A stretch of 64,000 nt of DNA, taken from positions 19,922,458 to 19,986,457 of the forward strand of contig CM055094.1 of assembly GCA_029204225.1 (NCBI GenBank), in the 5' to 3' direction. The position numbers and the translations under genes are program-made. Of this stretch, positions 2,061 to 63,624 are shown piece after piece. Each line of letters starts with the position of its first letter. The stretch's first letter is position 1. The notes below the pieces were generated by a model that was not told the DNA's origin, did no database searches, and saw only the letters and a program-made list of their open reading frames with translations. This DNA is from Diphasiastrum complanatum. Its lineage: Eukaryota > Streptophyta > Lycopodiopsida > Lycopodiales > Lycopodiaceae.

Positions 2061-3480
2061 GCTGGTTCTGAGGGAGTCTCCCAAGCTTTTATCTGCTAGT
2101 ATCAACTGGTCTTGAACTCGAGGTCAGTGGCTCAACTGCTACAAAGTGACGTCTATCAGAAGATAGCCTAATAACGTGGAGGTTTGCTTGTTCTTGATAT
2201 AGTCATGGAGGCAGTTGGAAGCAAACTGGGCCCAGTCATAAAGGTTCTGATCGTGTAGTTTAGAATCATCCATCATGTGGAATAAATTCATGGGGATACG
2301 CGTGATCTTGGCCTATAGCCCTATGTATATTTCGTTAGATAGGCGCACGGAGCAGCTAAGGGCTTATCATTTATGACCTCGATAAGGTAACCATTTTCTT
2401 TTTCCCATTTGTCCACTGAGGGGTCTATGTATTTGAAGTATGCTGTGGATTCAATCTTTTTTAGGGTCCTGTTGACTGTGTTTGGTGCCCTAGGGAAGCC
2501 AAATGTATTGAGGTTAGCTCCAGAAATAGGGATAATATAAACAAAATTTTGGTTAGGAGACAACATGAACTGGAAAATCTGTGGGTGTGGTTATAAGCAA
2601 TATGCAATCGAAATGGGCTCTGATAGCCACTGATCAAAAGAGGAAGTTGGAACTCTATGTGGCTCAGGAACTAGTGTGCCTCCTGGTACCAGGTGTTCAT
2701 CTCGTAGATATAGAGGCTTTCCATAGTGATGTCAATTCTGTCTAGAGTTGGGTCATCAGAACTGGAAAATGTTGTGGTAGACATGTTCTGGACTCGGCTG
2801 AGGACTCTGTTGAAGGTTCGGCTCTGGTAACAGACAAGTGGAGTCTCGGCTCGGTCGACTGTGGAGGGGTTCGAATCGATCAACTTTTGATGGACTCGTC
2901 TCGGTCAACTTTGTATGGAGGGTATGGATGCTCAGCTCGGTCCATAGTGAATGCAGAGTATGGGGGCTCGGCTCTATGAGCAGTGTAAGTAGAGTATTGC
3001 TCGGCAGTGTATGGAGACTAGAAATTTGTGAAAAAAATTGGAGCAATGTCGTTCTGATAGGATGTGGAAACGATGATGTTTCTTCGTAGTAACGTACTAG
3101 TAGCGAGCTTTCAACCCAGATCAGTGTTGAATGTGCAGTTTTGAAAAGCTTCAGGAGCACTACCCCTTAGCATTTGGCTCGTGTTAGATGTGACGATTTT
3201 TGTGTAATGTAGAAAATCTCGGCAGCTTAGGGTTTTTGAAAATGGATGATGATGGCGCTCTGGATCCGTGGTGGATGTATGTAGATGGTCTCCAAGGATG
3301 CGAAGGAGTAATGAAGCACTGTCGTAGCGAATGATAGATCGCCACTAAAAGATGGAAAATCGATCCTTTGAAGTTATAGCTTTTCAAGGCTTCTGAACTT
3401 CATTTCCATGCCTGAAGAAGGAAGTGCCAGCATCAAATCTTCTCCCATCAGAGTTTGTTTTCATTTCCTAAAAAGCATGC
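2061..3480 (-). pseudogene. Y module copy 1 (hypothetical multi-exon gene remnant)
   Basis: On the minus strand the sequence carries, in order, a leader-like part (KGSIFHLLVAIYHSLRQC), the 36-bp minisatellite (about 1.5 units here), a SSSDDPTLDRIDITMESL segment, and the best conserved exon-like frame starting FVYIIPISGANLNTFGFP and running to about 2321. It continues with frameshifts toward NLYDWAQFASNCLHDYIKNK. I do not recognise the family. Frames change at points where AG or CAG could be splice acceptors, but stops and indels show decay. It forms one arm of an inverted repeat with 9.83-11.19 kb. Confidence 0.6.
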
Positions 3481-4778
3481 ATGGCAGCATGGCAGTAAAG
3501 CGTGATATTGTGATTTTTTGTAATGTTCCCATGTATGTGAGGATTTTTGTTGTTTAATTATATCGATGTTGATTGAAACTATGATAGCTTTGTGGTTGTC
3601 ATTGGTAATATTAAAAGTTTTTTTTCACCTTATCTTGGGGCAAGTTCACAAATAGCAAGGTAACAAATTGGGACTCGGCAAGAACTCACTCCAAATGACT
3701 TTTTGAGCTTCAGTAACTTATTTTCATGAATTTATCATTGTGTCTAACTTGCCATATACCAGTTTTATAAGTATTTGCTTGATCCTTTACTCTTAAATGC
3801 ACCATAATGCTACTCCCTTACTGGCCATAACTTCTTCACCGTAGCCCGGAATTGGGTCATGTTGGGTGTCATTGAAAAAGCTCTCATCGAGGGCTTTCTA
3901 ATGGCACCGTAATCGTCTCTATCCGAGTTGTCGTTCAAAAGTTACACTATTTTTTTGCTAAGTTGCATACTATACTACAGATAAAATGGCTTATTTACGG
4001 GCTGCCCTGACACAAAATTACAATTCTTTTAAAAAGAAAAGAAAATCAATTTGAAGGAGCTACGTTACGTAGATTTCAAATTTGAGTGTTTTGATTGGAC
4101 CATGTGGAAGAAATTTTGAGAAAAAAAATAAAAGGTATGTTTTTGAAAAGCCCCTTCTGTGCTCAAATTTTCTGTAATGGTTGATAAGTTGGATTCACAT
4201 TTACATCATGAAGCAAACAATCTTGTAAGTTTTGTGTTCAAGTGGATCGGAAGCTCGCTCCAATGGATGTTGAGATTAATATATCATGCTATCTCTAGCC
4301 TAACAACCACACACTACATGTTTGGATCCAGAAAATATTCACGCAAACACACATCAATATTAATCTACTTTCACCTTTTATTTTGTCACATCTCTTTGTG
4401 CTTATGCGACATGAAAAGCTCCCTTCAAACAAACCTGTGAATGTGCCTTTCCTGTTGCCTTAATTTCTCATGCACTACCTTTGTCTTGGGCAACTAAAAT
4501 GTGATACAAATGTGACCTTTTCTCATGCTTATCTTTCTCCTATTCTTGGACAAGTAAAATTTGATTGTTGTAAGGGGGGGGGGTGTATAGTATAGATGGC
4601 TATGAGTGTGAAAGGGGCATGGATTATTCTTGACTTTGAAATGAATGGAGGGCGGGCTTATTCAAGTCACCTAGAGAATGGTCACAAGTTCTCCTTTAAG
4701 GATGGGATGCTCTATACATATGACTACAATGCCTCAACGTCTAACCCGAAATAGTACAAATAGAATGCAATGCATGGA

Positions 4779-4780
<2 letters not shown>
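3481..4780 (+). other. K module 5' flank, no supported gene
   Basis: About 1.3 kb of AT-rich sequence is shared with 54.83-56.2 kb and, inverted, with 7.97-9.69 kb. It includes a G run at about 4577-4585. Compared with the 9.18-9.69 kb copy it lacks about 500 bp near 3530. A 93-codon frame at 4159-4440 is not kept in the other copies, so I do not call it a gene. Confidence 0.6.

Positions 4781-4829
<49 letters not shown>
4781..4829. repeat. (CT)n microsatellite before K1
   Basis: About 49 bp of CT directly precedes the K1 start region. The K3 equivalent at 56.2 kb is about 159 bp and the K2 equivalent is under 20 bp, so the tract is highly length-variable. Confidence 0.95.
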
Positions 4830-4831
<2 letters not shown>

Positions 4832-4838
4832 ATAATCG

Positions 4839-5425
4839 ATGTTCTCTGTCCTTCTGATTTCGCCTCTTATTTTCATCATTTACAGGAGGCTGAAGAGTCT
4901 CAAAAAAGGATTGTTGATCCAACATCGGCTTAGGAAGATGGAGCAGGACCTAGAAATGAACATAGTATCGGCGGCTGAGAAAATCCGTTTGGCCAAAATA
5001 TCAGAAATTACGAAATCTATATGCGGAAGAGATTTGGAGGCACATGATATCAGTAATTCGATTCTGGTAGGACGCAAAGACGCGGACAAGTCAGCTCCAA
5101 CAATGGCATCTAATTTGATCGGGAGCTCATCTCAGCCAGAATTAATGGCGTCTACCGATTGGAGAGCTCCAGTCCTCAAAGATACGCACGTGAATGAAAG
5201 GCTTGAGCAAGCACCAAAGCAAGTCCAGAATGATCCTTCTTTCGATCCAAGATTTCGTAGAAAATGAGCATCGAGATCGGAAGACAACATACCAGCATAT
5301 CCTTGCAACTTTGCGATAATAGATTGCTCGTTCTCTTCTCAGAAGGAATGTCATACATCAATCAATAATTTCTGGGAACTGAGTTCCGATTCTCGCGATC
5401 CTACAATCCAGCTACAACACAAGTT
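4839..5425 (+). pseudogene. K1: membrane-anchored protein of unknown function, truncated
   Basis: The frame opens with MFSVLLISPLIFIIYRR, a short hydrophobic stretch followed by positive charges, consistent with a signal anchor. A charged helix-like part (KMEQDLEMNIVSAAEKIRL) and the first domain start (GRKDADKS, SSQPELMAST) follow. It stops at 5265-5267 with TGA where the K3 copy has CGA. The same TGA is present in K2. Homology continues to about 5425, where K1 is joined to the inverted 3' tail of K2, so most of the protein is absent. The pyrimidine tract and TTTACAG at about 4878-4884 could also be a splice acceptor. Family not recognised. Confidence 0.6.
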
Positions 5426-6448: not shown

Positions 6449-7933
6449 TCAGGAATAGTGGGCATCATGCTTATGATATTGCTCGCGCAGCCACTTGGAG
6501 CAGGTTCGAGTCAGCATTTGTCTTCGACCAGCAAATGCTTTTGATCTCTGGGTGTAAGCCATAGCAGCATTGATGATAAAGCCTGAAGTGCACATTTCTT
6601 CGAAGATTTGTATGGAGTCTGCAGGAAAGTATTGTGGATCCTGCTCAAACCTTCGGCCCATGACAGTCATCAGAAACTGGCAGAACTTGTGTTGTAACAT
6701 GATTGTAGGATCGTCAGAATTGGAAGTTAATTTGCAAAAATTCTTGATGGATGTATGACATTCCTTCTGAGAAGAGAACGAACCATCTATTATCGCAAAG
6801 TTGCAAGGATATGCTGATATGTTGTCTTCCGATCTCCATGCTAGCGCTCGTCTTCTACGAACACTTGGGTCAAAAGAAGGATCATTCTGAATTTGCTTTG
6901 GTGATTGATCAAGCATTTCATAGACGTACGTATCTTTGAGGAATGGAGCTCTCCAACCGGTCGACGCAATTAAATCTGGCTGAGAAGAGCTCCCGATCGA
7001 ATTAGATGTCGTCGTTGGAATTGACTTGTCCCCGTCTTTTCGTCCTATCAGAGTCGACTTACTGGCATGCTTATGATTTTGCTCACGTAGCCAGTTGAAG
7101 CAGTTTCGAGTCAGTATTTGTCTTCGACCAGTAAATGCTTTTGATCTTTGAGTGTACATGTAACCCTCATCAGCATTGATGATAAAACCTGAAGTGCACA
7201 TCTCTTCGAAGATATGTATGGAGTCTGCAGGAAAGTATTGAATCCATAAATAGATCCTGGTATCCTCCATGTGAAGAACCGCTTTGTTGGGATTGATGGA
7301 AAATTGTGGATCTTGCTCAAACCTTTGGCCCATGACAGTCATCAGAAACTGGCAGAACTTGTGTTGTAGCTTTATTGTAGGATCGCGAGAATCGGAACTC
7401 AGTTCCCAGAAATTATTGATTGATGTATGACATTCCTTCTGAGAAGAGAACGAGCCATCTATTATCGCAAAGTTGCAAGGATATGCTGATATGTTGTCTT
7501 CCGATCTCCATGCTCATCTTCTACGAAATCTTGGGTCGAAAGAAGGATCATTCTGGACTTTCTTTGGTGCTTGCTCAAGCCTTTCATTCACGTGCGTATC
7601 TTTGAGGACTGGAGCTCTCCAACCGGTAGATGCCATTAATTCTGGCTGAGGAGAACTCTTGATCAAATTAGATGCCGTCGTTGGAACTGACTTGTCCGCG
7701 TCTTTGCGTCCTACCAGAATCGAATTACTGATATTATGTGCCTCCAAATCTCTTCGGCATATAGATTTCGTAGTTTCTGATATTTTGGCCAAACGGATTT
7801 TCTGAGCCGCCGATACTATGTTCATTTCTAGGTCTTGCTCCATCTTCCTAGGCCGATGTTGGATCAAAAATCCTTTTCTGAGACTCTTCAAAATGACGAA
7901 AATAAGAGGCGAAATCAGAAGGACAGAGAACAT
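6449..7933 (-). pseudogene. K2: membrane segment plus duplicated domain, one nonsense codon
   Basis: Reading from 7933, the frame gives the same membrane start as K1, the first domain up to RRR, then a TGA at 7514-7516. The same frame continues open through two tandem copies of a domain. Marker words are CQFLMTVMGQRFEQDPQ, FEEMCTSGFIINA and QILTRNCFNWLREQ. The second domain lacks 22 codons after FEQDPQ relative to K3, an in-frame deletion. A single CGA to TGA change is the main lesion, of the kind expected from methyl-CpG decay. I cannot name the family; the Cys-Phe-rich domain shows no catalytic motif I know. Confidence 0.65.
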
Positions 7934-9690
7934 CGATAATGCAGAGAGAGAGAGAGAGATATTCCATGCATTGCATTCTATTTGTACTATTTCTAGTTAG
8001 ACGTTGAGGCATTGTAGTCATATGTATAGAGCATCCCATCCTTAAAGGAGAACTTGTGACCATTCTCTAGGTGACTTGAATAAGCCCGCCCCTTTCACAC
8101 TCATAGCCATCTATACTATACACCCCCCCCTTACAACAATCAAATTTTACTTGTCCAAGAATAAGAGAAAGATAAGCATGAGAAAAGGTCACAATTGTAT
8201 CACATTTTAGTTTCCCAAGACAAAGGTAGTGCATGAGAAATTAAGGCAACAGGAAAGGCACATTCACAGGTTTGTTTGAAGGGAGCTTTTCATGTTGCAT
8301 AAGCATGAAGAGATGTGACGAAATAAAAGGTGAAAGTAGATTAATATTGATGTGTGATGTCCCTTTGTGTGAATATTTTCTGGATCCAAACATCTAGTGT
8401 GTGGCTGTTAGGCTAGAAATAGCATGATATATTAATCTCAACATCCATTCGAGCGAGCTTCCGATCCACTTGAACACAAAACTTACAAGACTATTTGCTT
8501 TATGATGTAAATGTGAATCCAACTTATCAACCATTACAAAAAATTTGAGCACAAAAGGGGCCTTTCAAAAACATACCTTTTATTTTTTTTCTCAAAAGTT
8601 TCTTCCACATGGTCCAATCAAAACACTCAAATTTGAAATCTACGTAACGTAGCTCCTTCAAATTGATATTCTTTTCTTTTTAAAAGAATTGTAATTTTGT
8701 GTCAGGGCAGCCCGTAAATAAGCCATTTTATTTGTAGTATAGTATGCAACTTAGCAAAAAAACAGTGTAACTTTTGAACGGCAACTCGGATAGAGACGAT
8801 TACGGTGCCATTAGAAAGCCCTCGACGAGAGCTTTTTCAACGACACCCAACATGACCCAATTCCGGGCTACGGTGAAGAAGTTATGGCCAGTAAGGGAGT
8901 AGCATTATGGTGCATTTAAGAGTAAAGGATCAAGCAAATACTTATAAAACTGGTATATGGCAAGTTAGACACAATGATAAATTCATGAGAACAAGTTAGT
9001 GAAGCTCAAAAAGTCATTTGGAGTGAGTTCTTGCCGAGTCCCAATTTGTTACCTTGCTATTTGTGAACTTGCCCCAAGATAAGGTGAAAAAAACCTTTTA
9101 ATATTACGAATGACAACCACGAAGCTACCATAGTTTCAATCGACATCTATATAATTAAACAACAAAAATCATCACATACATGCAAACAAGATGGCAAACA
9201 CTCATCAATTTTTCTGTGCATGATTCGAGCCGGATTGTCTTCATGCCCAAATTCCTAGAAATTGGAGATACCGGAACAACAAATTTACATTTTTCTAGAA
9301 CCTATTGCATCATTATCTGATTGTGCTCTCTTTCTCTTACCTTAAATGGTGCAAAAAAGCTACTAGAATATTGAACCAATAATATCACAAGCTACATTCA
9401 AATGTGCTAAGATAACACGAAAGTGTAGCACAATTTGCTTATAATAGGCTACGTGCAAATGATCATAATCATGGTGAGCTGTGAACTCGATCTTTGCCAT
9501 TATAAATTAGCCTACACTTGGTATAAATAGCATCATTTCCACCAAAAAGAAACTTTCAGAGGAAGTTGATTTGTACAGAAACTAGAACTTCAACCTCATA
9601 AAACTCTTTAAGAATCTAGGTCCTTAATTTTCTCATTTGGTGTAGCTATGTATGTAAGCTAATGTTGCAGAACATTACAAAACTTCACAA
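7934..9690 (-). other. K2 5' flank
   Basis: Reverse-complement partner of 3.49-4.83 kb, with about 500 bp (9.18-9.69 kb) that K1 and K3 lack. That extra segment is also present at 38.52-39.02 kb and in part at 44.69, 50.2 kb. It contains a C run near 8121-8131. No supported coding sequence. Confidence 0.6.
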
Positions 9691-18383: not shown

Positions 18384-19330
18384 TTTATCAATTTTCGGTC
18401 AATGATCTTGCCGACTTCGCCCATAAGGGCCTCTGCAATCTTGGGCTCGATTCGAGAATATCGTTGATTTCCAAGTAGACTCGTCGTTGACTTGGCTATA
18501 AGTACTGCACTCAAAGACTTTCCAATCATGTCCTTGTCTTTCGAATTTTCATTGGTGACTAAAGCTGCTCTGCAAAATAAAAATAAGATTTAGAAAAAAA
18601 CAATTCACAACCATTGATGTGCTAGATGAAACAAAACACATGAATAGTTTAAAACATAATCCTACTTGAAAGCATATATTCTTTTTTTCCGTTGACCCCC
18701 ACTTGTTGAGAGCTCTCAGTCCTTTTTAAAATAACCCTTTTTCACTTATTGTTCAGTATTGTCTTCCGTAATGTGTTTACTTCTACATTTATTTGACAAT
18801 ATGAGGTACACAATGTTTGTACAATTAGTTTCATATTGTCAGTTTCTTGGTTGAGGTTTAATATAATATCTTGCAAACGAGAATTATCTATCTTCAAGAT
18901 TTCATTTTCTTCTTTTGTTTGCAAAAAAAAGTTTCTTTTTCTCGGTAGTCAGTAAGCAAACCATTCAACATATTTTCCAAACAGTGGATTTTTTTCATTG
19001 AATAACTAATGCCATAACTTTTCAATCTTTCACAATAACCCAATAGACTATTGTGTCCTTCACACAAAAACAGTATGAGTTGTGTGACCGATCTAAAATT
19101 TGGAAGTTGCATTGAGCTTGGATCGATTGGATACAAACATCCATCAACCCATAGATGCCAATGTTTCCTGTCTTTCGTCCTTTGGTGATATGGTAAGGTG
19201 GATCCTTTCAGATTTTTTCTCGACAGTGGACCATATTCTGTGGGAAGATCAATATGGAGATGATATTTAGACATCTTAATAATCGATAGATTAATCTAGT
19301 AGAAAACCCACTTATTATATATCTTGTAAG
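18384..19330 (-). pseudogene. Y module copy 3, downstream exons
   Basis: From right to left the minus strand gives MSKYHLHIDLPTEYGPLSRK continuing to a frame rich in LWVDGCLYPIDPSS and SLLGYCERLKSYGISYSMKK, then a coiled-coil-like part (EENEILKIDNSRLQDIILNL). After a gap with an intron-like AT-rich stretch comes DMIGKSLSAVLIAKSTTSLL. The same order is kept in Y4. One frameshift lies in the poly-A run near 18925. It ends near 18384, where Copia-side sequence begins. No family recognised; coiled coil suggests a structural or regulatory protein. Confidence 0.55.
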
Positions 19331-19800
19331 CTATTAAAGCTCGTCTTAATTATAAAAAAAATAATTGTAAAAGTTTGAAATGACCTTGGCGCTCTTTTTG
19401 ATCCATCACACTCCATGTTTCTTGCTTTATATGCAAAATCAAAGCTTTGCAGTTATGAGCAAAATAAGCAAAATATTTTTTCAATAGATGTGTGTTGAAA
19501 CTGCAAAGCTTTGAATTGCAAAAGTTTGAGATAACCTTGCCGCTCCATTTGATCCAACACACTCCATATTTTATGAATTTCAAAAATTTAGATTCACATT
19601 GGCGCTCATTGTGATCCAAAATATTCAAAGTTTCTTGCCATGATTTGCAGATCGATAAGACTGTTTTTCTATGATGTGAATGCTTTAGTAGATGGAAAGA
19701 AAACTTTGATGTGCAATACGATTTGCATTTACATGAGAAGTCATGTTAGTTAATGGTAGAAAATAGAATCTTGAAGTATGGACCCCATGCGTTATGGCTA
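19331..19800 (-). repeat. Y module copy 3, triple-motif spacer
   Basis: Contains three diverged copies of a motif (LDHNERQ, LDQMERQ type, MDQKERQGHFKLLQ) as in 11.7-11.98 and 29.0-29.27 kb. The outer two share one frame, the middle one is shifted, so the DNA repeat is clearer than any protein. Confidence 0.5.
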
Positions 19801-21250
19801 CCCAACTTCTAGTTATCTACATACGTTACTAGTGAGGTCAAGTCATCGGAGTTGTGCGGGCAGACCAAAAACTCGGTCGGAGTTTTAAAATTCGATGATT
19901 TTCTCTCTCTTACATGGCATTTCTTAGATAGCCCTTTTTGGCCATGGAACTCCTCGAATGTAAACTCCATATCATTTGAGTCTATTTCATCTGATGAAGC
20001 ATGATGCTTCGCTTGTATCGATCCTTCGTCTGTGACATAGAGTACATGGGTGTCTTTCTCGATGTAAGCTTCACTAGGTCGACCGTTTGGTGCTTTGCAG
20101 TTGGCCCTTGTGGAGAGAAAGAACTCTTTCTCTTTTGAGAAGCCGCTTGCGTGGGATCTGTTGCAATAGGCCTGGAAGTAGAGTTGGTATTCTTGGCCGG
20201 TTCTGAGGGAGTCTCCCAAGCTTTTATCTGCTAGCATCAAGTGGTCTCAAAATCGAGGTCAGTGGCTCAACTGTTGCAAAGTGACATCTATCATAAGATA
20301 GCCCAATAACTGGAGGTTTGCTTATTCTTGATATAGTCATGGAGGCAGTTGGAAGCAAACTGGGCCCAGTCATAAAGGTCCTAATCATGTAGTTTAGAAT
20401 CAGCCATCATGTGGAATAGTTTCATGGGGATACGCGTGATCTTGGACCTATAGCCCTATGTATATTTCGTTAGATAGGCGCAGGGAGCAGCTAAGGGCTT
20501 ATCATTTATGACCTCGATAAGGTAACCATCTTTTTTTTCCCATTTGTCCACTGAGGGGTCTATGAATTTGAAGTATGTTGTGGATTCAATCTTTTTGAGG
20601 GTCCTACTGACTGTGTTTGGTCCCCTAGGGAAGCCAGATGTATTGAGGTCAGCTTCAGAAATAGGGATAATATAAACAAAATTTTGGTGAGGAGGTAACA
20701 TGAACTGAAAAATCTGTCGGTGTGGTTATAAGCAATATGCAATCGAAACGGGCTCTGCTAGCCACTGATCAAAAGAGGAAGTTGAAACTCTATGTGGCTC
20801 AGGAACTAGTGTGCCTCCTGGTACCAAGTGTTCATCTCAGAGATATCGAGACTTTCCATGGTCATGTCAATTCTATCTTGAGTTGGGTCATCAGAACTGG
20901 AAGATGTTGTGACAGACAGGTTCTGGACTGGGGTGATGACTCTGTTGAAGGTTCGGCTCCGGTAACAGACAAGTGGAGTCTCGGCTCGGTCGACTGTGGA
21001 GGGCTTCGGATCGGTCGTCTTTGGATGGACTCGGCTCAATCAACTTTGTATGCAGAGTATGGACGCTCAGCTCAGTCCACAGTGAATGCAGAGTATGGAC
21101 GCTCGACTCGGTCCACAGTGATTGCAGAGCATGGAGGCTAGGCTCTCTGAGCAGTGTATGTAGAGTATTGCTCGGCAGTGTATGGATACTAGAAATTTGT
21201 GGAAAACTTTGGAGCAATGTTGCTCTGATAGGATGTGAAAACGATAATTA
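19801..21250 (-). pseudogene. Y module copy 3, upstream exons and minisatellite
   Basis: Frames on the minus strand are: minisatellite at 21.02-21.15 kb; SSSDDPTQDRIDMTMESLDI; FVYIIPISEADLNTSGFPRG to PLAAPCAYLTKYT (20456-20701); and ADKSLGDSLRTGQEYQLYFQ to HNSDDLTSLVTYVDN (19809-20240, 143 codons), the best preserved version with an acidic middle (SSDEIDSNDMEFTFEEF). The plus strand is also open for 139 codons over the minisatellite (20722-21141), with a 12-residue repeat AEYGRSAQSTVN. Which strand was coding is not settled; the minus strand is favoured by synteny of the several exons. Confidence 0.6.
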
Positions 21251-27335: not shown

Positions 27336-28840
27336 ATGCACATAAATATGCCTCTTCAAATCATTCCTACAAGATCAGTTGAATCATCATGTAATAATCA
27401 TTGTTTCCACATCCTATCAGAGCAACATTGCTCCAAAGTTTTCCACAAATTTCTAGTCTCCAGACACTGCCGAGCAATACTCTACATACACTGCTCAGAG
27501 AGCCTAGCCTCCATGCTCTGGAATCACTGTGGACCGAGTCGAGCGTCCATACTCTGCATTGACTATGGACTGAACTGAGCGTCCATACTCTGCATACAAA
27601 GTTGACTGAGCCGAGTCCATCCAAAGACGACCGATCCGAAACCCTCCACAGTCGACCGAGCCGAGACTGCACTTGTCTGTTACCAGAGCCGAACCTTCAA
27701 CAGAGTCATCAGCCGAGTCCAGAACCTGTCTGCCACAACATCTTCCAGTTCTGATGACCCAACTCAAGACAGAATTTACATCACCATGGAAAGCCTCGAT
27801 ATCTCTGAGATGAACACTTGGTACCAGGAGGCACACTAGTTCCTGAGCCACATAGAGTTCCAACTTTCTCTTTTGATCAGTGGCTAGCAGAGCCCGTTTC
27901 GATTGCATATTGCTTATAACCACACCGACAGATTTTCCAGTTCATGTTACCTCCTAACCAAAATTTTGTTTATATTATCCCTATTTCTAGAGCTGACCTC
28001 AATACATTTGGCTTCCCTAGGGGACCAAACACAGTCAATAGGAGCGTCAAAAAGATTGAATCCACAACATACTTCAAATACATAGACCCCTCAGTAGACA
28101 AATGGAAAAAATAAGATGGTTACCTTATCGAGGTGATAAATGATAAGCCCTTGGCTGCTCTGTGCGCCTATCTAACGAAATAGACATAGGGCTATAGGTC
28201 CAAGATCACGCGTATCCCCATGAAACTATTCCACATGATGGCTGATTCTAAACTACACGATCAGAACCTTTATGATTGGGCCCAGTTTGCTTCCAACTAC
28301 CTCCATGAGTATATCAAGAACAAGCAAACCTCCAGTTATTGGGCTATCTTCTGATAGATGTCACTTTGCAACAGTTGAGCCACTGACCTCGATTTTGAGA
28401 CCACTTGATGCTAGCAGATAAAAGCTTGGGAGACTTCCTCAGAACCGGCCAAGAATACCAACTCTACTTCCAGGCCTATTGCAACAGATTCCACGCAAGC
28501 GGCTTCTCAAAAGAGAAAGAGTTCCTTCTCTCCACAAGGACCAACTACAAAGCACCAAACGGTCGACCTAGTGAAGCTTACATCGAGAAAGACACCCATG
28601 TACTCTATGTCACAGACGAAGGATCGATACAAGCGAAGCGTCATGCTTCATCAGATGAAATAGACTCGAATGATATGGAGTTTACATTCGAGGAGTTCCA
28701 TGGCCCAAAAGGGCTGTCTAAGAAATGCCATGTAAGAGAGAGAAAATCGTCTAATTTTAAAACTCCGACCGAGTTTTTGGTCTGCCTGCACAACTCCGAT
28801 GACTTGACCTCACTAGTAACGTATGTAGTTAACTAGAAGT
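27336..28840 (+). pseudogene. Y module copy 4, upstream exons and minisatellite
   Basis: Mirror of Y3. It holds the minisatellite (27.5-27.62 kb), DDPTQDRIYITMESLDISEM, the VYII exon (with a TAA after DKWKK at about 28110) and the 143-codon frame 28405-28836 (ADKSLGDFLRTGQEYQLYFQ to VVN). Stops not shared with Y3 show independent decay. Opposite-strand frame 27504-27923 is also open for 139 codons. Confidence 0.6.
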
Positions 28841-30360
28841 TGGGTAGCCGTAACGCGTGGGGTCCATACTTCAAGATTCTATTTTCTACCATTAACTAAT
28901 ATGACTTCTCATGTAAATGCAAATCGTATTGCACATCAAAGTTTTCTTTCCATCTACTAAAGCGTTCACATCAAAGAAAAACACTCTTATCGATCTGCAA
29001 ATCATGGCAAGAAACTTTGAATATTTTGGATCACAATGAGCGCCAACGTGAATCTAAATTTTTGAAATTCAGAAAATATGGAGTGTGTTGGATCAAATGG
29101 AACAGCAAGGTTATCTCGAACTTTTGCAATTCAAAAATTTGCAGTTTCAACACACATCTATTGAAAAAATATTTTGCTTATTTTGCTCAAGCTTTGATTT
29201 TGGATATAAAGCAAGAAACATGGAGTGTGATGGATCAAAAAGAGCGCCAAGGTTATTTCAAACTTTTACAATTATTATTTTTCTATAATTAAGACAAGCT
29301 TTAATAGCTTAGAAGATATATAATAAGTGGGTTTTCTACTAGATTAATCTATCGATTATTAAGATGTCTAAATAGCATCTCCATATTGATCTTCCCACAG
29401 AATATGCTCCACTGTCGAGAAAAAATCTGAAAGGATCCACCTTACCATCTCACCAAAGGACGAAAGACAGGAAACATTGGCATCTATGGGTTGATGGATG
29501 TTTGTATCCAATTGATCCAAGCTCAATGCAACATCCAAATTTTAGATCGGTCACACAACTCATACTGTTTTTGTGTGAAGAACACAATAGTCTATTCGGT
29601 TATTGTGAAAGATTGAAAAGTTATGGCATTAGTTATTCAATGAAAAAAATCCACTGTTTGGAAAATATGTTGAATGGTTTGCTTACTGACTACCGAGAAA
29701 AAGAAACTTTTTTTTGCAAACAAAGGAAGAAAATGAAATCTTGAAGATAGATAATTCTTGTTTGCAAGATATTATATTAAACCTCAACCAAGAAACTGAC
29801 AATATGAAACTAATTGTACAAACATTGTGTACCTCATATTGTCAAATAAATGTAGAAGTAAACACATTACGGAAGAAAATACTGAACAATAAGCGAAAAA
29901 TGGTTGTTTTAAAAAGTACTGACGAGCTCTCAACAAGTGGGGGTCAACGAAAAAAAAGAATATATGCTTTCAAGTAGGATTATGTTTTAAACTATTCATG
30001 TGTTTTGTTTCATCTAGCACATCAATGGTTGTGAATTGTTTTTTTCTAAATCTTATTTTTATTTTGCAGAGCAGCTTTAGTCACCAATGAAAATCCGAAA
30101 GACAAGGACATGATTGGAAAGTCTTTGAGTGCAGTACTTACAGCCAAGTCAACGACGAGTCTACTTGGAAATCAACGATATTCTCGAATCGAGCCCAAGA
30201 TTGCAGAGGCCCTTATGGGTGAAGTCGACAAGATCATTGACCGAAAATTGATACAAGGAGCATGTGATTATTCTGGTATTAGCAGGGATGCATATGACAC
30301 AATGTTTGAAATTATCAAAGAGGCATTTGGACAAGTACATATAAAACAATTTCCTGCCCC
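28841..30360 (+). pseudogene. Y module copy 4, downstream exons
   Basis: The triple-motif spacer (29.0-29.28 kb) is followed by SMQHPNFRSVTQLILFLCEE and a coiled-coil-like frame ending STDELSTSGGQRKKRIYAFK, GTAGGATT (possible donor) near 29975. A 90-bp intron-like stretch ends TTTTGCAG at 30069. The exon continues as AALVTNENPKDKDMIGKSLS to GQVHIKQFPAPP. This is the most complete copy of the 3' half, and the splice signals and frame agree well across the intron. Its end at 30360 abuts the histone module. Confidence 0.6.
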
Positions 30361-30497
30361 TCCCCGCCTGTCTCTGCCAATCTCTCGCGTTGTAGCGATA
30401 TCACCCTTAGAGTTCTCAGTGTCGCCATTACGCGAGATAATTTAGCTCTCTCTTCTGTTGTATCTCTGTCCTCGCATGGTGTAGATATCCGGCCTTA
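30361..30497 (+). promoter_or_regulatory. Conserved 5' flank of histone-like gene, copy C1
   Basis: About 137 bp, repeated before C2 (30926-31062) and before C4 (63307-63445, minus). It includes GTAGCGATATCACCC and a CT-rich stretch. Its conservation up to the ATG argues that the flank was copied along with the ORF. By comparison with C4 it is the lower part of a longer leader; the G-box/TATA part is absent here. Confidence 0.4.
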
Positions 30498-31010
30498 ATG
30501 GCTCGGACGAAGCAAACTGCTAGGCTTACCCATTTTGTTCAACCATCCCGTCTCCAGACATTTGAACCCATACGTCCGCAAAGACGCGGAAGACCTCGCC
30601 GTCCATGGTTGAGGGACATCAGGGCCTTGCAGAGGTACACCAAACTTGTGATCCTGAAAGCAGCCTTGTATCGGGCTATGAGGGAGGTTACACAAGATAT
30701 GACAACCCATCTGCCCTATGCAGTGAGGTGGAATATCGCTGCATTGGAGGCCCTCCATATTGCATACGAGGACTTCCAGACAAAATTGTTTGAGGATTCG
30801 ATGTTGTGTTCTATTCATGGCAAGAGGGTAACACTGATGCCCAAGGACATGCTTCTTGTCATGAGATTTCAAAACACCTATGACAGCGGTATGCCACATG
30901 GCAAATCATGCAGGCTTGAGGGTTCTCCCCGCCTGTCTTTGCCACTTTCTCGCGTTGTAGCGATATCACCCTTAGAGTTCTCAGTGTCGCCATTACGCGA
31001 TATAATTTAG
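30498..31010 (+). CDS. Divergent histone H3, CENH3-like (C1)
   Basis: The 170-residue frame opens MARTKQTAR, identical to the H3 tail through R8 with K4 kept, but K9-S10 is replaced by Leu-Thr. LRDIRALQRYTKLVI (38-52) matches the alpha-N helix and MREVTQDM (61-68) the alpha-1 end. VRWNIAALEAL (77-87) and KLFEDSMLCSIHGKRVTLMP (96-115) match alpha-2, loop 2 and alpha-3. REVT, RW, ED followed by an aromatic residue, and SMLC-IH with RVTLM are features of plant CENH3. Loop 1 is about four residues longer than in canonical H3 (CENH3 is usually longer here too). CENH3 marks centromeric nucleosomes. After about residue 128 the natural C-terminus is replaced by in-frame A-array sequence and a copy of the next 5' flank, so function is doubtful. 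It is the only one of four copies without a frameshift. A canonical H3 retro-copy is a less likely alternative. Confidence 0.7.
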   Translation: MARTKQTARLTHFVQPSRLQTFEPIRPQRRGRPRRPWLRDIRALQRYTKLVILKAALYRAMREVTQDMTTHLPYAVRWNIAALEALHIAYEDFQTKLFEDSMLCSIHGKRVTLMPKDMLLVMRFQNTYDSGMPHGKSCRLEGSPRLSLPLSRVVAISPLEFSVSPLRDII

Positions 31011-31062
31011 CTCTCTCTTATGCTGTATCTCTGTCCTCGCATGGTATAGATATCCGGCCTCA

Positions 31063-31440
31063 ATGGCTCGGACGAAGCAAACTGCTAGGCTTACCCATTT
31101 TCTTCAACCGTCCCATCCCCAGACATCTGAACCCATAAGTCCGCAAAGACACGGAAGACCTCGCCTCCATGGTTGAGGGACATCAGGGCCTTGCAGAGGT
31201 ACACCAAACTTGTGATCCTGAAAGCAGCCTTGTATCGGGCTGTGAGGGAGGTTACACAAGATATGACCACGCATCTGTCCTATGCAGTGAGGTGGAATAT
31301 CGCTGCATTGGAGGCCCTCCATATTGCATACGAGGACTTCCAGACAAAATTGTTTGAGGATTCGATGCAGTGTTCCATTCATGGCAAGAGGGTCCTACAC
31401 TGATGCCCAAGACATGCTTCTTGTCATGAGGTTTCCAAAC
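31063..31440 (+). pseudogene. CENH3-like histone pseudogene (C2)
   Basis: A tandem copy 565 bp downstream of C1, starting MARTKQTARLTHFLQPS. A one-base deletion near 31168 (CCGTCC to CCTCC) shifts the frame just before LRDIRALQ. The core then stays open to HGKRV, where further indels near 31393 disrupt it. MLCS is MQCS-type (SMQCSIH) in C2, C3 and C4, so C1 may be closer to the ancestor at this site. Confidence 0.8.
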
Positions 31441-32258
31441 ACCTATGACAGCGGTATGCCACATGGCAAATCATGCAGGCTTGAGGGTTGCCATGTGGCA
31501 AGCCATGTAGGCCTACCATAACCTTGCATGTCAAGCCAACTGGGCCCTGTGCCACGTAGGCTTGAGTGGACCTAGAGATCGATATATATATATAGGTGGG
31601 CTCAAAAGTTGCCAATTAGCAAACCACACAGGCCTACCATAGGCTTGCGTGGCAGGCCACATAGGCATGGCATGTTTCTGATGCTTCCTACGTAAGCATG
31701 TCGCACGCTACCACATAGGCTTGCCATAGGCTTGTGTGGCAAGCAAACCAGGCTCTGCCATGTACGCTTGAGTGGAGCTAGAGAGAGAGAGCTGGGGCTC
31801 CCAAGTTGCCATGTGGCAAGCCATGTAGGCATGTCATGAGATAAACCATGCAGGCTAGGGAGGCAGGCCACATAGGCATGGCATGTTTGTGATGCTTCCC
31901 AAGTAAGCATGTCGCAGGATACCACATAGCCTTGCCATAGGGTGGTGTGGCAAGCCAACCAAGCTCTGCCATGTAGGCTTGAGTGGAGCTAGAGAGAGAG
32001 AGCTGGGGCTCCCAAGTTGCCATGTGGCAAGCCATGTAGGCATGTCATGAGATAAACCATGCAGGCTAGGGACTTGCCATGTGGCAACCCATGTAGGCCT
32101 ATCATAGGCTTGCGTGGTAGGTCATATAGGCATGACTTAGGCTTGATGCTAGTATGTTCATGCTGGTATGTTGCAGTCTGCCATATAGGCTTGACATAGG
32201 CTTGTGTGGCAAGCCAACTAAGCTATACCACGTGGGTTTGCCATGTAGGCTTGAGTGG

Positions 32259-32261
<3 letters not shown>
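31441..32261 (+). repeat. Palindrome-rich A array, copy 3
   Basis: The longest plus-strand array. It contains the TA palindrome near 31580-31595 and two tandem subunits of about 210 bp marked by GAGTGGAGCTAGAGAGAGAG at 31.77 and 31.98 kb. It joins directly to the histone-like C2. Confidence 0.88.

Positions 32262-32346
<85 letters not shown>
32262..32346. repeat. (GA)n microsatellite
   Basis: About 85 bp of GA, same position relative to the A array as at 535-634. Confidence 0.97.
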
Positions 32347-32352
<6 letters not shown>

Positions 32353-33240
32353 TCTGAGTGAGGAGTCACACATGAACGACTTCCCTGTGGTATGGCCTAG
32401 CATCAACGTTGAAAAAAATATCTGATGGAGATAAGAAGGGTCCCAAGCAAATTTCAAATGAGAATCTTGCAGAGAAAGTATTGAAACCACTGCTGGTGAG
32501 GGATCCCAAAGAATCGAACTTGAGTGTACAAGCCCAACAAAAGCGCATACACCAACTCACCACACATGGGAAGATCGTTAAATTTGAATTTGAAGAAAGA
32601 TCATTGAAATGTTTGTAGATCGATGTTTAACAAAATCATATATATTATAATCCTCACACGTGTGGAATCAAGATCTACAAGAAAATCAACTTTCTACACA
32701 GAGAAAACCAAGATAGAGAAAATCACATGAGATGGACATAAGAGATGAATTCTCCACAAAGAAAGAAACTTTGATGATTATTTCTCCACTTAGGTACAAC
32801 TATTTATAGCTTCCATAATGTCATTTGGCCAGTTGCCCCAAACTTGACCTAATTTGGAAACTTCCAGATACTTTATCAAAAACCTAGAAAATCTAGTCTA
32901 GATTCAATGTACCAAAATTAGCCAATTAGAATGGGTCCAAACTCGACCTCATCCACTGATCTACTTGCCAGAGGTAGTTAAACCACTATTTAGGCCCTTG
33001 TTTACAAATATGAAACTAACTCGAAGTTGAGATTCATTTTGGCCTCCAAAATTGCCAAATGAAAAACCAAACTAGTTGACAATTTTTCACACCATGTCCT
33101 CTAGACATCTCCATTGATGAATACAATTTCTAAGTTTTTGAAAGCAATGTACCAAAATTTAGCCAATTAGAATGGGTCCAAACTCGACCTCATCCACTTA
33201 TCTACTTGCCAGAGGTAGTTAAACCACTATTTAGGCCCTT
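32347..33240 (-). mobile_element. Copia LTR fragment with internal duplication
   Basis: Reverse complement of the LTR at 59.8-60.78 kb, including the TGTGAAAAATTG terminus (here TTTTTCACA near 33093). An extra 140 bp after it (33094-33240) repeats GTACCAAAATT-AGCCAATTAG to GGCCCTT, part of the 241-bp tandem duplication seen in full at 59.76-60.24 kb. It ends at the same GGCCCTT/Copia gag joint as at 1282. Confidence 0.65.
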
Positions 33241-33980
33241 TTCATAAAGATTAAGAGAAAATCCAAAGGCAAAGGTGTTGCATTCAAGAAAAACCAAGTC
33301 AAAGCTCGAGCAAGCTAAAGAAGGATAAGTCGAAGATCAAATGCTACTTTTGTGGCAAGACGGGGCATTATGCCTCAGAGTGCTTCAAGAAGAAGCAAAC
33401 TCAAAGTCAAGCAAACCTTGGTCAAGAGGAAGAGGAGAGCTCTCATGAAGATTTCGTCATGATGTCAAGTTTCTCATCTTCAAGCATAAGAGGTGAAGAC
33501 CCTTGGTGGATAGATAGTGGGGCTACCTCCCACATGACAAGTAAGAGGGAGTATTTTTCAACCTTATCTACCTATGAAGGACCTATCACGTAAATTTTTA
33601 CAGCAAATAATTATGCTTATAAGATAGAAGGAATAGGATCCATACCTTTATGCTTGGGATTTTCAAGAAAGATCAAGATTGATGGAGTGCTTTACATTTT
33701 CAGTATCACTAAGAACTTGCTTAGTGTAGGGCAATTGCTTGACAATGGTTTGATTGTGGAGTTCCCTACAAATACATGTAACATCAAGAAGGATGGCAAG
33801 ATCATTGCTAAAGGGGTGACGATCTCAACAAAGCTCGGCCTCACTCTTCAAAAGGTGATCGGTCAACTTCTTCAGGAAGAAATGAGAAGAAAGACCAACG
33901 GCCTGTCCATCAAAGACAAATCCATGGCCCTGTACACCAAAAAGAAAGACTATTCCAAGGGCAAGAATCAAGTGCAGTAG
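33241..33980 (+). pseudogene. Chimeric Copia protease plus gag fragment, second copy
   Basis: Same order as 1283-2060: gag tail, complete zinc knuckle (CYFCGKTGHYASEC), protease WWIDSGATSHMT, then KIDGVLYIFSITKNLLSVGQ running in frame into the second Gag fragment (TLQKVIGQLLQEEMRRKTNG) to a TAG after NQVQ. Here the second half is open for 108 codons (33654-33980). The shared joints show that 1-2.1 and 31.4-34.05 kb are copies of one rearranged unit. Confidence 0.75.
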
Positions 33981-60560: not shown

Positions 60561-61760
<1,200 letters not shown>

Positions 61761-61761
61761 C

Positions 61762-61994
61762 TGTCATAGGTGTTTCGAAACCTCACGACAAGAAGCATGT
61801 CCTTGGGCATCAGTGTCACCCTCTTGCCATGAATGGAACACTGCATCGAATCCTCAAACAATTTTGTCTGGAAGTCCTCGTATGCAATATAGAGGGCCTC
61901 CAATGCAACGATATTCCACCTCACTGCATAGGGCAGATGCGTAGTCATATCTTGTGTAACCTCCCTCACAGCCCGGTACAAGGCTGCTTTCAGG
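61762..61994 (-). pseudogene. CENH3-like histone fragment (C3)
   Basis: Core from LKAALYRAVREVTQDM to KDMLLVVRFRNTY is open, but the tail and alpha-N are missing. At the joint, histone GATCCTGAAAGC meets AAGAAGGGTCC of the ISDGDKKG segment, so a 122-codon frame starts in that segment (62059) and continues in frame into the histone core. A duplicated GGGACCCTTCTTATCTCCATC lies at 61.99 and 62.02 kb. Confidence 0.75.
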
Positions 61995-62102
61995 ACCCTT
62001 CTTATCTCCATCAAATATTTTTTGGGACCCTTCTTATCTCCATCAGATATTTTTTTCAACGTTGATGCTAGGCCATACCACAGGGAAGTAGTTCATGTGT
62101 GA

Positions 62103-62171: not shown

Positions 62172-62920
62172 CCACTCAAGCCTACATGGCAAACCCACAT
62201 GGTATAGCTTAGTTGGCTTGCCACACAAGCCTATGTCAAGCCTATATGGCAGACTGCAACATACCAGCATGAACATACTAGCATCAAGCCTATGTCATGC
62301 CTATATGACCTACCACGCAAGCCTATGATAGGCCTACATGGCTTGCCACATGGCAACTTGGGAGGCCCAGCTCTCTCTCTCTAGCTCCATTCAAGCCTAC
62401 ATGGCAGAGCTTGGTTGGCTTGCCACACAAGCCTATGGTAAGCCTATGTGGTATCCTGCGACATGCTTATGTGGGAAGCATCAAAAATATGCCATGCTTA
62501 TGTGGCCTGCCATGCAAGCCTATGGTTTATCTCATGACATGCCTACATGGCTTGCCACATGGCAACTTGGGAGCCCCAACTCTCTCTCTCTAGCTCCGCT
62601 CAAGCCTACATGGCAGAGCCTGGTTTGCTTGCCACACAAGCCTATGGCAAGCATATGTGGTAGCCTGCGACATGCTTACTTAGGAAGCATCAGAAACATG
62701 CCATGCCTATGTGACCTGCCACGCAAGCCTATGGTAGGCCTGTGTGGTTTGTCAAGTGGCATCTTTTGAGCCCACCTATATATATATATAGATCTCTAGG
62801 TCCACTCAAGCCTACGTGGCACAGGGCCTAGTTGGCTTGACATACAAGGTTATGGTAGGCCTACATGGCTTGCCACATGGCAACCCTCAAGCCTGCATGA
62901 TTTGCCATGTGGCATACCGC
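62169..62920 (-). repeat. Palindrome-rich A array, copy 6
   Basis: Same structure as copy 5, with the TA palindrome near 62776-62791, joining C4 at about 62920. Confidence 0.88.
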
Positions 62921-62921
62921 T

Positions 62922-63306
62922 GTCATAGGTGTTTTGAAACCTCATGACAAGAAGCATGTCCTTGGGCATCAGTGTCACCCTCTTGCCATGAATGGAACAC
63001 TGCATCGAATCCTCAAACAATTTTGTCTGGAAGTCCTCGTATGCAATATATAGGGCCTCCAATGCAGCGATATTCCACCTCACTGCATAGGGCAGATGCG
63101 TGGTCATATCTTGTGTAACCTCCCTCACAGCCCGGTACAAGGCTACTTATAGGATCACAAGTTTGGTGTACCTCTGTAAGGCCCTGATGTCCCTCAACCA
63201 TGGACGACGAGGTCATTCGCGTCTTTGCACACGTATGGGTTCAAATGTCAGGGGACGGGATGGTTGCAAAATGGGTAAGCCTAGCAGTTTGCTTCGTCCG
63301 AGCCAT
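62922..63306 (-). pseudogene. CENH3-like histone pseudogene (C4)
   Basis: Starts MARTKQTARLTHF at 63306. A two-base deletion follows (GTTCAACC to GCAACC), giving an early stop. The core contains a TAA (ATCCTATAAG) before the open MYRAVREVTQDM to RFQNTY part. It is the only copy with its full upstream region, including the P module. Confidence 0.8.
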
Positions 63307-63624
63307 TGGGGCCGGATATCTATACCATGCGAGGACAGAGATACAACAGAAGAGAGAGCTAAATTATCTCGCGTAATGGCGACACTGAGAACTCTAAGGG
63401 TGATATCGCTACAATGCGAGAGAGTGGCAGAGACAGGCGGGGAGAGGCAGGGGCTTGCATGATGGCGATACTGGGAAAGTCAGGCTGATATCGCTACGAC
63501 ATGAGAGGGTGTAAGGAATAGGCCTGGAGACGAGGTCGCTCGCATGCTGGCGATATCACGAATGCAGGTCGTATGGAAGCAATCAAACATGACAGCAAAT
63601 TACGCGAAAACCTATACAATCCCC
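63307..63624 (-). promoter_or_regulatory. Leader of C4 with repeats of about 85 bp
   Basis: The word (A/C)TGGCGA followed by GATATCGCTAC recurs at 63376, 63462 and 63547, spacing 86 and 85 bp. The proximal 137 bp is what precedes C1 and C2. If the TATA box at 63635-63641 is used, the transcript would start near 63608 and carry a leader of about 300 nt containing several upstream ATGs. Confidence 0.45.

Follow-up and report, generated by a model that had tools for sequence, protein, structure and literature searches.

Does a short open frame in the lycophyte Diphasiastrum complanatum, which starts like histone H3 and has a fold resembling that of CENH3, encode a protein able to compete with the CENH3 of its host, as the initial annotation suggested, or does it have another origin? 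The frame lies in a stretch of 64,000 nucleotides (the window; C3:19922458-19986457 of the host assembly), which was compared with the whole genome (1,744,706,496 bases in 5176 contigs). On the evidence of related loci the frame is almost certainly a decayed copy, shortened by an internal deletion, of the second gene carried by a high-copy DNA transposon with terminal inverted repeats (TIRs). In the dispersed copies that gene joins the histone to a domain resembling the Ulp1 proteases.

The histone frame and its surroundings

Residues 16-124 of the window frame match the Pfam core histone family (PF00125, E 3.6e-20), and solved H3 chains in the PDB match it to residue 125 (~1e-18). The features from which a CENH3-like histone had been read are all present: the frame carries REVT, RW, SMLCSIH and RVTLM, and its long loop 1 aligns with four extra residues relative to H3. 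The W at the H3 RF position is present in the window-type histone family alongside the +4-residue loop 1. The tail begins MARTKQTAR as described, with K4 kept and K9/S10 replaced by L and T. The initial annotation also held that the end of the C-terminal helix is replaced by repeat-encoded residues, which proved incorrect. The end of helix 3 is essentially complete and homology to the transposon extends to 30885-30887 (codon 129/130), so that the repeat takes the place of the linker and protease domain of the parent gene and not of the helix.

Table 1. Features of the window around the histone frame and its further copies
Feature	Position	Strand	Remarks
Second copy of the transposon left part	18468..19960	-	94.7% identical to the left part of dispersed locus L045
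Transposon left end and putative transposase exons, 3' side broken by internal deletion	28685..30353	+	91-94% identical to left parts of dispersed elements, same start
Transposon leader just 5' of the histone ATG	30353..30497	+	Matches dispersed elements from -145 to -1
Histone frame	30498-31010	+	170 aa plus stop
Histone domain of CENH3 type (transposon gene codons 1-130)	30498..30887	+	PF00125 and homology to 20/20 dispersed loci
Remainder of the frame, foreign to the parent gene (repeat of satellite type followed by the leader of the next copy)	30888..31010	+	Repeat structure and end of element homology
Second tandem copy of the 565-bp unit, frameshifted	30925..31489	+	About 95% identical; histone match split across two frames
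Satellite-like repeat (211-bp unit, two tandem copies) and GA microsatellite, 3' of the histone unit	31490..32360	+	
Fourth histone-unit copy, 5'-truncated	61723..61995	-	95% identical; match from residue 52
Third histone-unit copy, start out of frame	62882..63451	-	94.8% identical; histone match from residue 13

A 565-bp unit stands twice in tandem here, at 30360-30924 and 30925-31489, with about 95% identity between the halves; the frame belongs to one half, and 30360-30600 recurs at 30925-31165. The histone unit is present in four copies in the window, and the three others are frameshifted, have their start out of frame or are truncated (Table 1). The frame had been placed between a broken gene and a palindromic repeat. 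The broken gene was confirmed, and by its homology it is a putative transposase exon of the same transposon: window positions 30201-30353 match dispersed copies of the element 3.2-4.5 kb upstream of the histone ATG, after which the match jumps to -145. The palindromic character of the downstream repeat was upheld only weakly. At seed 12 no inverted repeat reaching 25 bases was detected in 29500-33500, and at seed 8 an imperfect palindrome of 26 bases (73%) and a single distant pair of 18 bases were seen in 31480-32260; the repeat is mainly direct and satellite-like, with a unit of 211 bases. The two copies of the transposon left part (18468..19960 and that starting at 28685) have 1.5 kb of outer flank in common, indicating that they arose by duplication of a larger piece. 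Further downstream, a frame at 33255-33593 (+) contains a CCHC knuckle and the sequence DSGATSHM and by eye appears to be a fragment of a copia retrotransposon.

The transposon family

Searching the genome with the window histone gave 6494 first-look candidates, unverified one by one, and the best 150 were scored, all with E below 1e-64. Among these 150 best matches 89 lie in clusters (C3 18.5-21.8 Mb, C3 29.9-30.2 Mb and C14 49.4-49.9 Mb), the first of which includes the window, and 61 are dispersed, many of them with longer open frames. Twenty dispersed loci were chosen from the best 150 protein matches, partly for long open frames. In all 20 the histone is situated inside a larger flanking element common to them. 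Nine of the 20 reach the same right end, beyond which the flanks are unrelated, and five loci have a common left end with unrelated flanks; at L032 this left end is part of another, neighbouring element. Left and right ends are inverted repeats of each other, though imperfect ones, and begin CATTAGAGGAGTT (CATTAG...). Queried by itself, the right end returned 981 first-look candidates, and each of the 40 that were scored is at least 94% identical. A sister-looking inverted repeat start, CATTACAAAAAATTTGAGCAC..., occurs in the window at 8531 (+) and 55567 (-) and is laid out like the end of the histone element; perhaps it marks another family of the same superfamily.

The left gene of the element looks by eye like a transposase, and neither its separate pieces nor a 442-aa join of them matched a Pfam family. 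Its position relative to the histone is fixed. Of the 61 dispersed histone matches, 17 have a listed transposase-like match on their own strand 3.1-3.9 kb upstream; the opposite strand and a mirrored control gave none, though several of these loci are near-identical pairs, which leaves fewer independent cases. The right end lies 2.4-3.8 kb downstream on the same strand in 9 of the 61, and near two listed histone matches it is found ~1.9 kb away in inverted position. Transposase and right end were paired within 12 kb in 8 cases on one strand and in 1 case on opposite strands; the mirrored control gave 0. These counts come from match lists that had not been chosen for the purpose, and the 61 matches exclude the 89 of the 150 that lie in the C3 and C14 arrays. 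For 116 further histone matches (the 150 scored matches of an Arabidopsis CENH3 query, less 13 canonical H3 and 21 already in the window-histone list) the linkage to transposase is weak, with 1 on the same strand and 2 on the opposite one. The 150 scored transposase matches also include a group at ~75-78% identity with no listed histone match nearby.

Two known classes of element were considered. CACTA/EnSpm elements generate a 3-bp target-site duplication. The TIRs here begin CATTAGAGGAGTT and not CACTA, and no Tnp2-type Pfam match was obtained. At L043, the sole locus with both ends clean, which may be a rearranged copy, no target-site duplication was seen. Helitrons have ends of the CTRR type, and assignment to this class was dropped because the two ends of the element are inverted repeats.

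Individual copies have further structure of their own. Locus L034 contains a 1.19-kb inverted repeat (892-2076 and 2823-4013, 95% identical), and L035 has opposite-strand frames inside the element (2819-3958 and 7436-8422, both on the minus strand) with no Pfam match above chance. Along L035, variation shared among copies peaks at about 4500-5100, around the promoter and the start of the histone (up to 95 variants per 300 bases), and further along runs at ~35-45 shared variants per 300 bases at similar depth.

The parent gene, its descent and past selection

As read from the dispersed copies, the parent gene is 518 codons long and split by three GT-AG introns into four exons; its stop is common to 17 of the 20 loci. 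It encodes, in order, an H3/CENH3-like fold, a basic proline- and serine-rich linker and an Ulp1-like (Peptidase_C48) domain. The C48 family PF02902 matches two conceptual proteins weakly, at 21.2 and 20.7 bits against a cut-off of 20.7. In an alignment of the C48 part from 8 of the 20 proteins, four members match PF02902 at E up to 0.1 (best 1.7e-5) and the other four miss at E 0.1; solved structures in the PDB gave no credible sequence match to this part. The catalytic residues of Ulp1 are His, Asp, Gln and Cys. The motifs that by eye occupy the corresponding sites are KHW (18/20), MNSLH (18/20), QQD (most copies) and a Cys at the SCGW site (15/20); the usual acidic position appears to be Asn, in the MNSLH motif. 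A genome search with PF02902 (150 of 520 candidates scored) gave 3 matches, none of which by eye was near a listed histone match. In the histone tail, which is short, position 4 is Lys and position 9 is Leu in all 20 copies, and K4 is the sole lysine in the first 36 residues of the majority sequence, single copies having others.

Host H3 genes are distinct. The canonical H3 query gave 6060 candidates, and the 150 that were scored include 13 full-length H3 frames at 97-99% together with shorter exon-like matches and many H3-like frames, mostly at 44-57%; the transposon histone is 36-45% identical to H3, versus 97-99% for the full-length host frames. Placement within the canonical H3 copies, which would have undone the CENH3-like reading, was not observed: the 13 canonical frames stand separate and the transposon histones form a clade of their own (100/100).

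That clade holds at 100/99 when a second subfamily, represented by L051, is included. The L051 histone (C13:31266429-31266623, a 195-base read taken from the longest listed frame, which is on C13 and 527 aa in length) has RW and ALHTAYED in common with the window type and is without the loop-1 insert. Used as query, it listed dozens of copies with 80-94% identity and another group at ~67-75%.

In an alignment with an Arabidopsis CENH3 sequence entered by hand, the window-type histone has the same W in RW, longer loop 1, SMLC and RVTLM. It differs from CENH3/CENP-A in that it is transposon-borne and fused to a C48 domain, and in a tail that starts ARTKQTAR and has one lysine in the majority sequence; the L051 subfamily resembles CENH3 in RW and departs from it in the missing loop-1 insert. 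In trees whose CENH3 and H3 references were likewise entered by hand, the transposon histones nest among the CENH3s without firm support, and a grouping of the CENH3s to the exclusion of the transposon rows was not rejected (AU p 0.118). The Arabidopsis CENH3 query recovered canonical H3 and transposon-type frames and no recognisable host CENH3 among the best 150 candidates, all scored. Because the nesting is weak, the AU test permits the exclusion and no host CENH3 was recognised, a CENH3-type assignment is supported by the sequence marks, whereas capture from a CENH3 gene is not established.

Changes in two or more copies (shared) were compared with those in single copies, whose spectrum supplied the expected synonymous fraction; the copies are not independent of each other. 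In histone codons 1-131 the shared changes comprise 38 synonymous and 36 non-synonymous (expected fraction 0.261, p 3.3e-6), in a test that the choice of loci by protein match could bias and in which the singletons look neutral (30 versus 77). In C48 codons 200-345, a part absent from the query used to choose the 20 loci, there are 26 synonymous versus 36 non-synonymous shared changes (expected 0.238, p 0.0012) and singletons are again near neutral (55 versus 176). The linker shows no significant excess (12 synonymous versus 21, p 0.14), and neither do the array copies, in which shared and single changes do not differ significantly (p 0.10; 28 of 30 used, two identical rows being dropped). Such substitutions fit a two-domain protein kept under purifying selection during the spread of the family, with copies decaying once inserted. 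None of the 20 dispersed copies is free of stops and frameshifts across all four exons, indicating that the sampled family is old.

A possible role in chromatin

What would a transposon gain from such a gene? We suggest, at slightly better than an even chance, that the histone-C48 product acted as a chromatin-bound anti-silencing factor. The histone part would place or tether the protein in nucleosomes that cannot take H3K9 methylation, the Ulp1-like part would act there on SUMO or a similar modifier, and the element or its relatives would thereby escape silencing, as reported for the Ulp1-bearing KIU genes. A broader and more tentative proposal, to which we give somewhat less than an even chance, is that a whole transposon superfamily may carry its own fusion of an H3/CENH3-like histone with a SUMO-protease-like domain as a chromatin-editing weapon, with nucleosomes that keep K4 and are unmethylatable at K9, a tethered protease and escape from silencing. 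If this were true, a core histone would have become a high-copy selfish gene and a transposon would be making its own chromatin, with consequences for the annotation of CENH3-like sequences in plant genomes. The natural fusion of an Ulp1-like domain to a K9-unmethylatable histone suggests that the protein would act in chromatin, and in this form the question can be tested.

Parts of this arrangement have precedents. In the accessible text of the respective reports, the KIU genes of Arabidopsis MULEs (KAONASHI/KIU) bear Ulp1 and are reported to cause methylation loss on related elements (PMC13317346), and CACTA-ULP elements are known from grapevine, their proteins being described with Tnp2 (PMC2528002). 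Both are, like the present element, DNA transposons with a gene holding an Ulp1-like domain. They differ in that no histone domain is mentioned in those texts (the word 'histone' is absent from the main text of PMC13317346), and in that no Pfam family matches the present transposase, CACTA-ULP proteins being described with Tnp2. By analogy, the KIU genes would be the closest precedent for the proposed anti-silencing role. Pack-MULEs, Pack-CACTAs and Helitrons that capture genes similarly hold host-like coding sequence inside a transposon, as far as their accessible descriptions go, but here the sequence is a coding gene of the element, bears the mark of past selection and has a second histone-bearing subfamily. 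In titles and the beginnings of abstracts of open-licence papers (one of the queries being an exact phrase) we found no histone inside a transposon, nor a description of a histone fold and a SUMO-protease-like domain combined in one transposon gene. For position 9 an analogy may be drawn to oncohistone-type substitutions: in the accessible text of PMC5030085, H3K9M traps Clr4, and in both cases the position cannot be methylated, although the residue here is L and not M and K9L is absent from that paper.

The main rival to an anti-silencing role is that the histone part steers integration or segregation, entering centromeric (CENH3) chromatin and bringing the element or its transposase to centromeres. 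The CENH3-type marks in the fold would suit such targeting, as would the dense copies at C3:18.5-21.8 Mb among the best 150 matches. However, copies are spread over many contigs, among those 150 C3 and C14 alone have strong clusters, the C3 copies of the window are a deleted derivative, and the L051 subfamily is without the loop-1 insert. In addition lycophyte meiosis is symmetric, according to the accessible text of PMC11687628, and classical centromere drive is not expected. We regard centromere targeting as unlikely. Similarly unlikely, and if anything more doubtful, is that a host H3 or CENH3 sequence was caught by the transposon as a neutral passenger without function for it. Transposons often carry gene fragments (PMC2528002, accessible text) and all 20 examined copies are broken, but the synonymous excess of shared changes in the two domains and not in the linker argues against a passenger, as does a second subfamily that still matches the histone fold in dozens of listed copies at 80-94%.

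Two further explanations seem very improbable. Amplification of a host CENH3-like family by duplication, or an endogenous viral gene, might account for the thousands of first-look candidates, which are unverified one by one, but would not lead one to expect common ends with unrelated flanks or the fixed spacing to a transposase-like frame; a search of viral contigs for close relatives gave 11 pattern matches and no relative. The initial proposal, in which the locus is a CENH3-like gene making a competitor of host CENH3, draws on an open frame and a complete fold. A special, possibly functional rival of CENH3 is nevertheless not supported, since the copy carries an internal deletion, belongs to a large family borne by transposons, lies in a repeat array with its protease domain missing, and is accompanied in the window by three other copies that are all broken.
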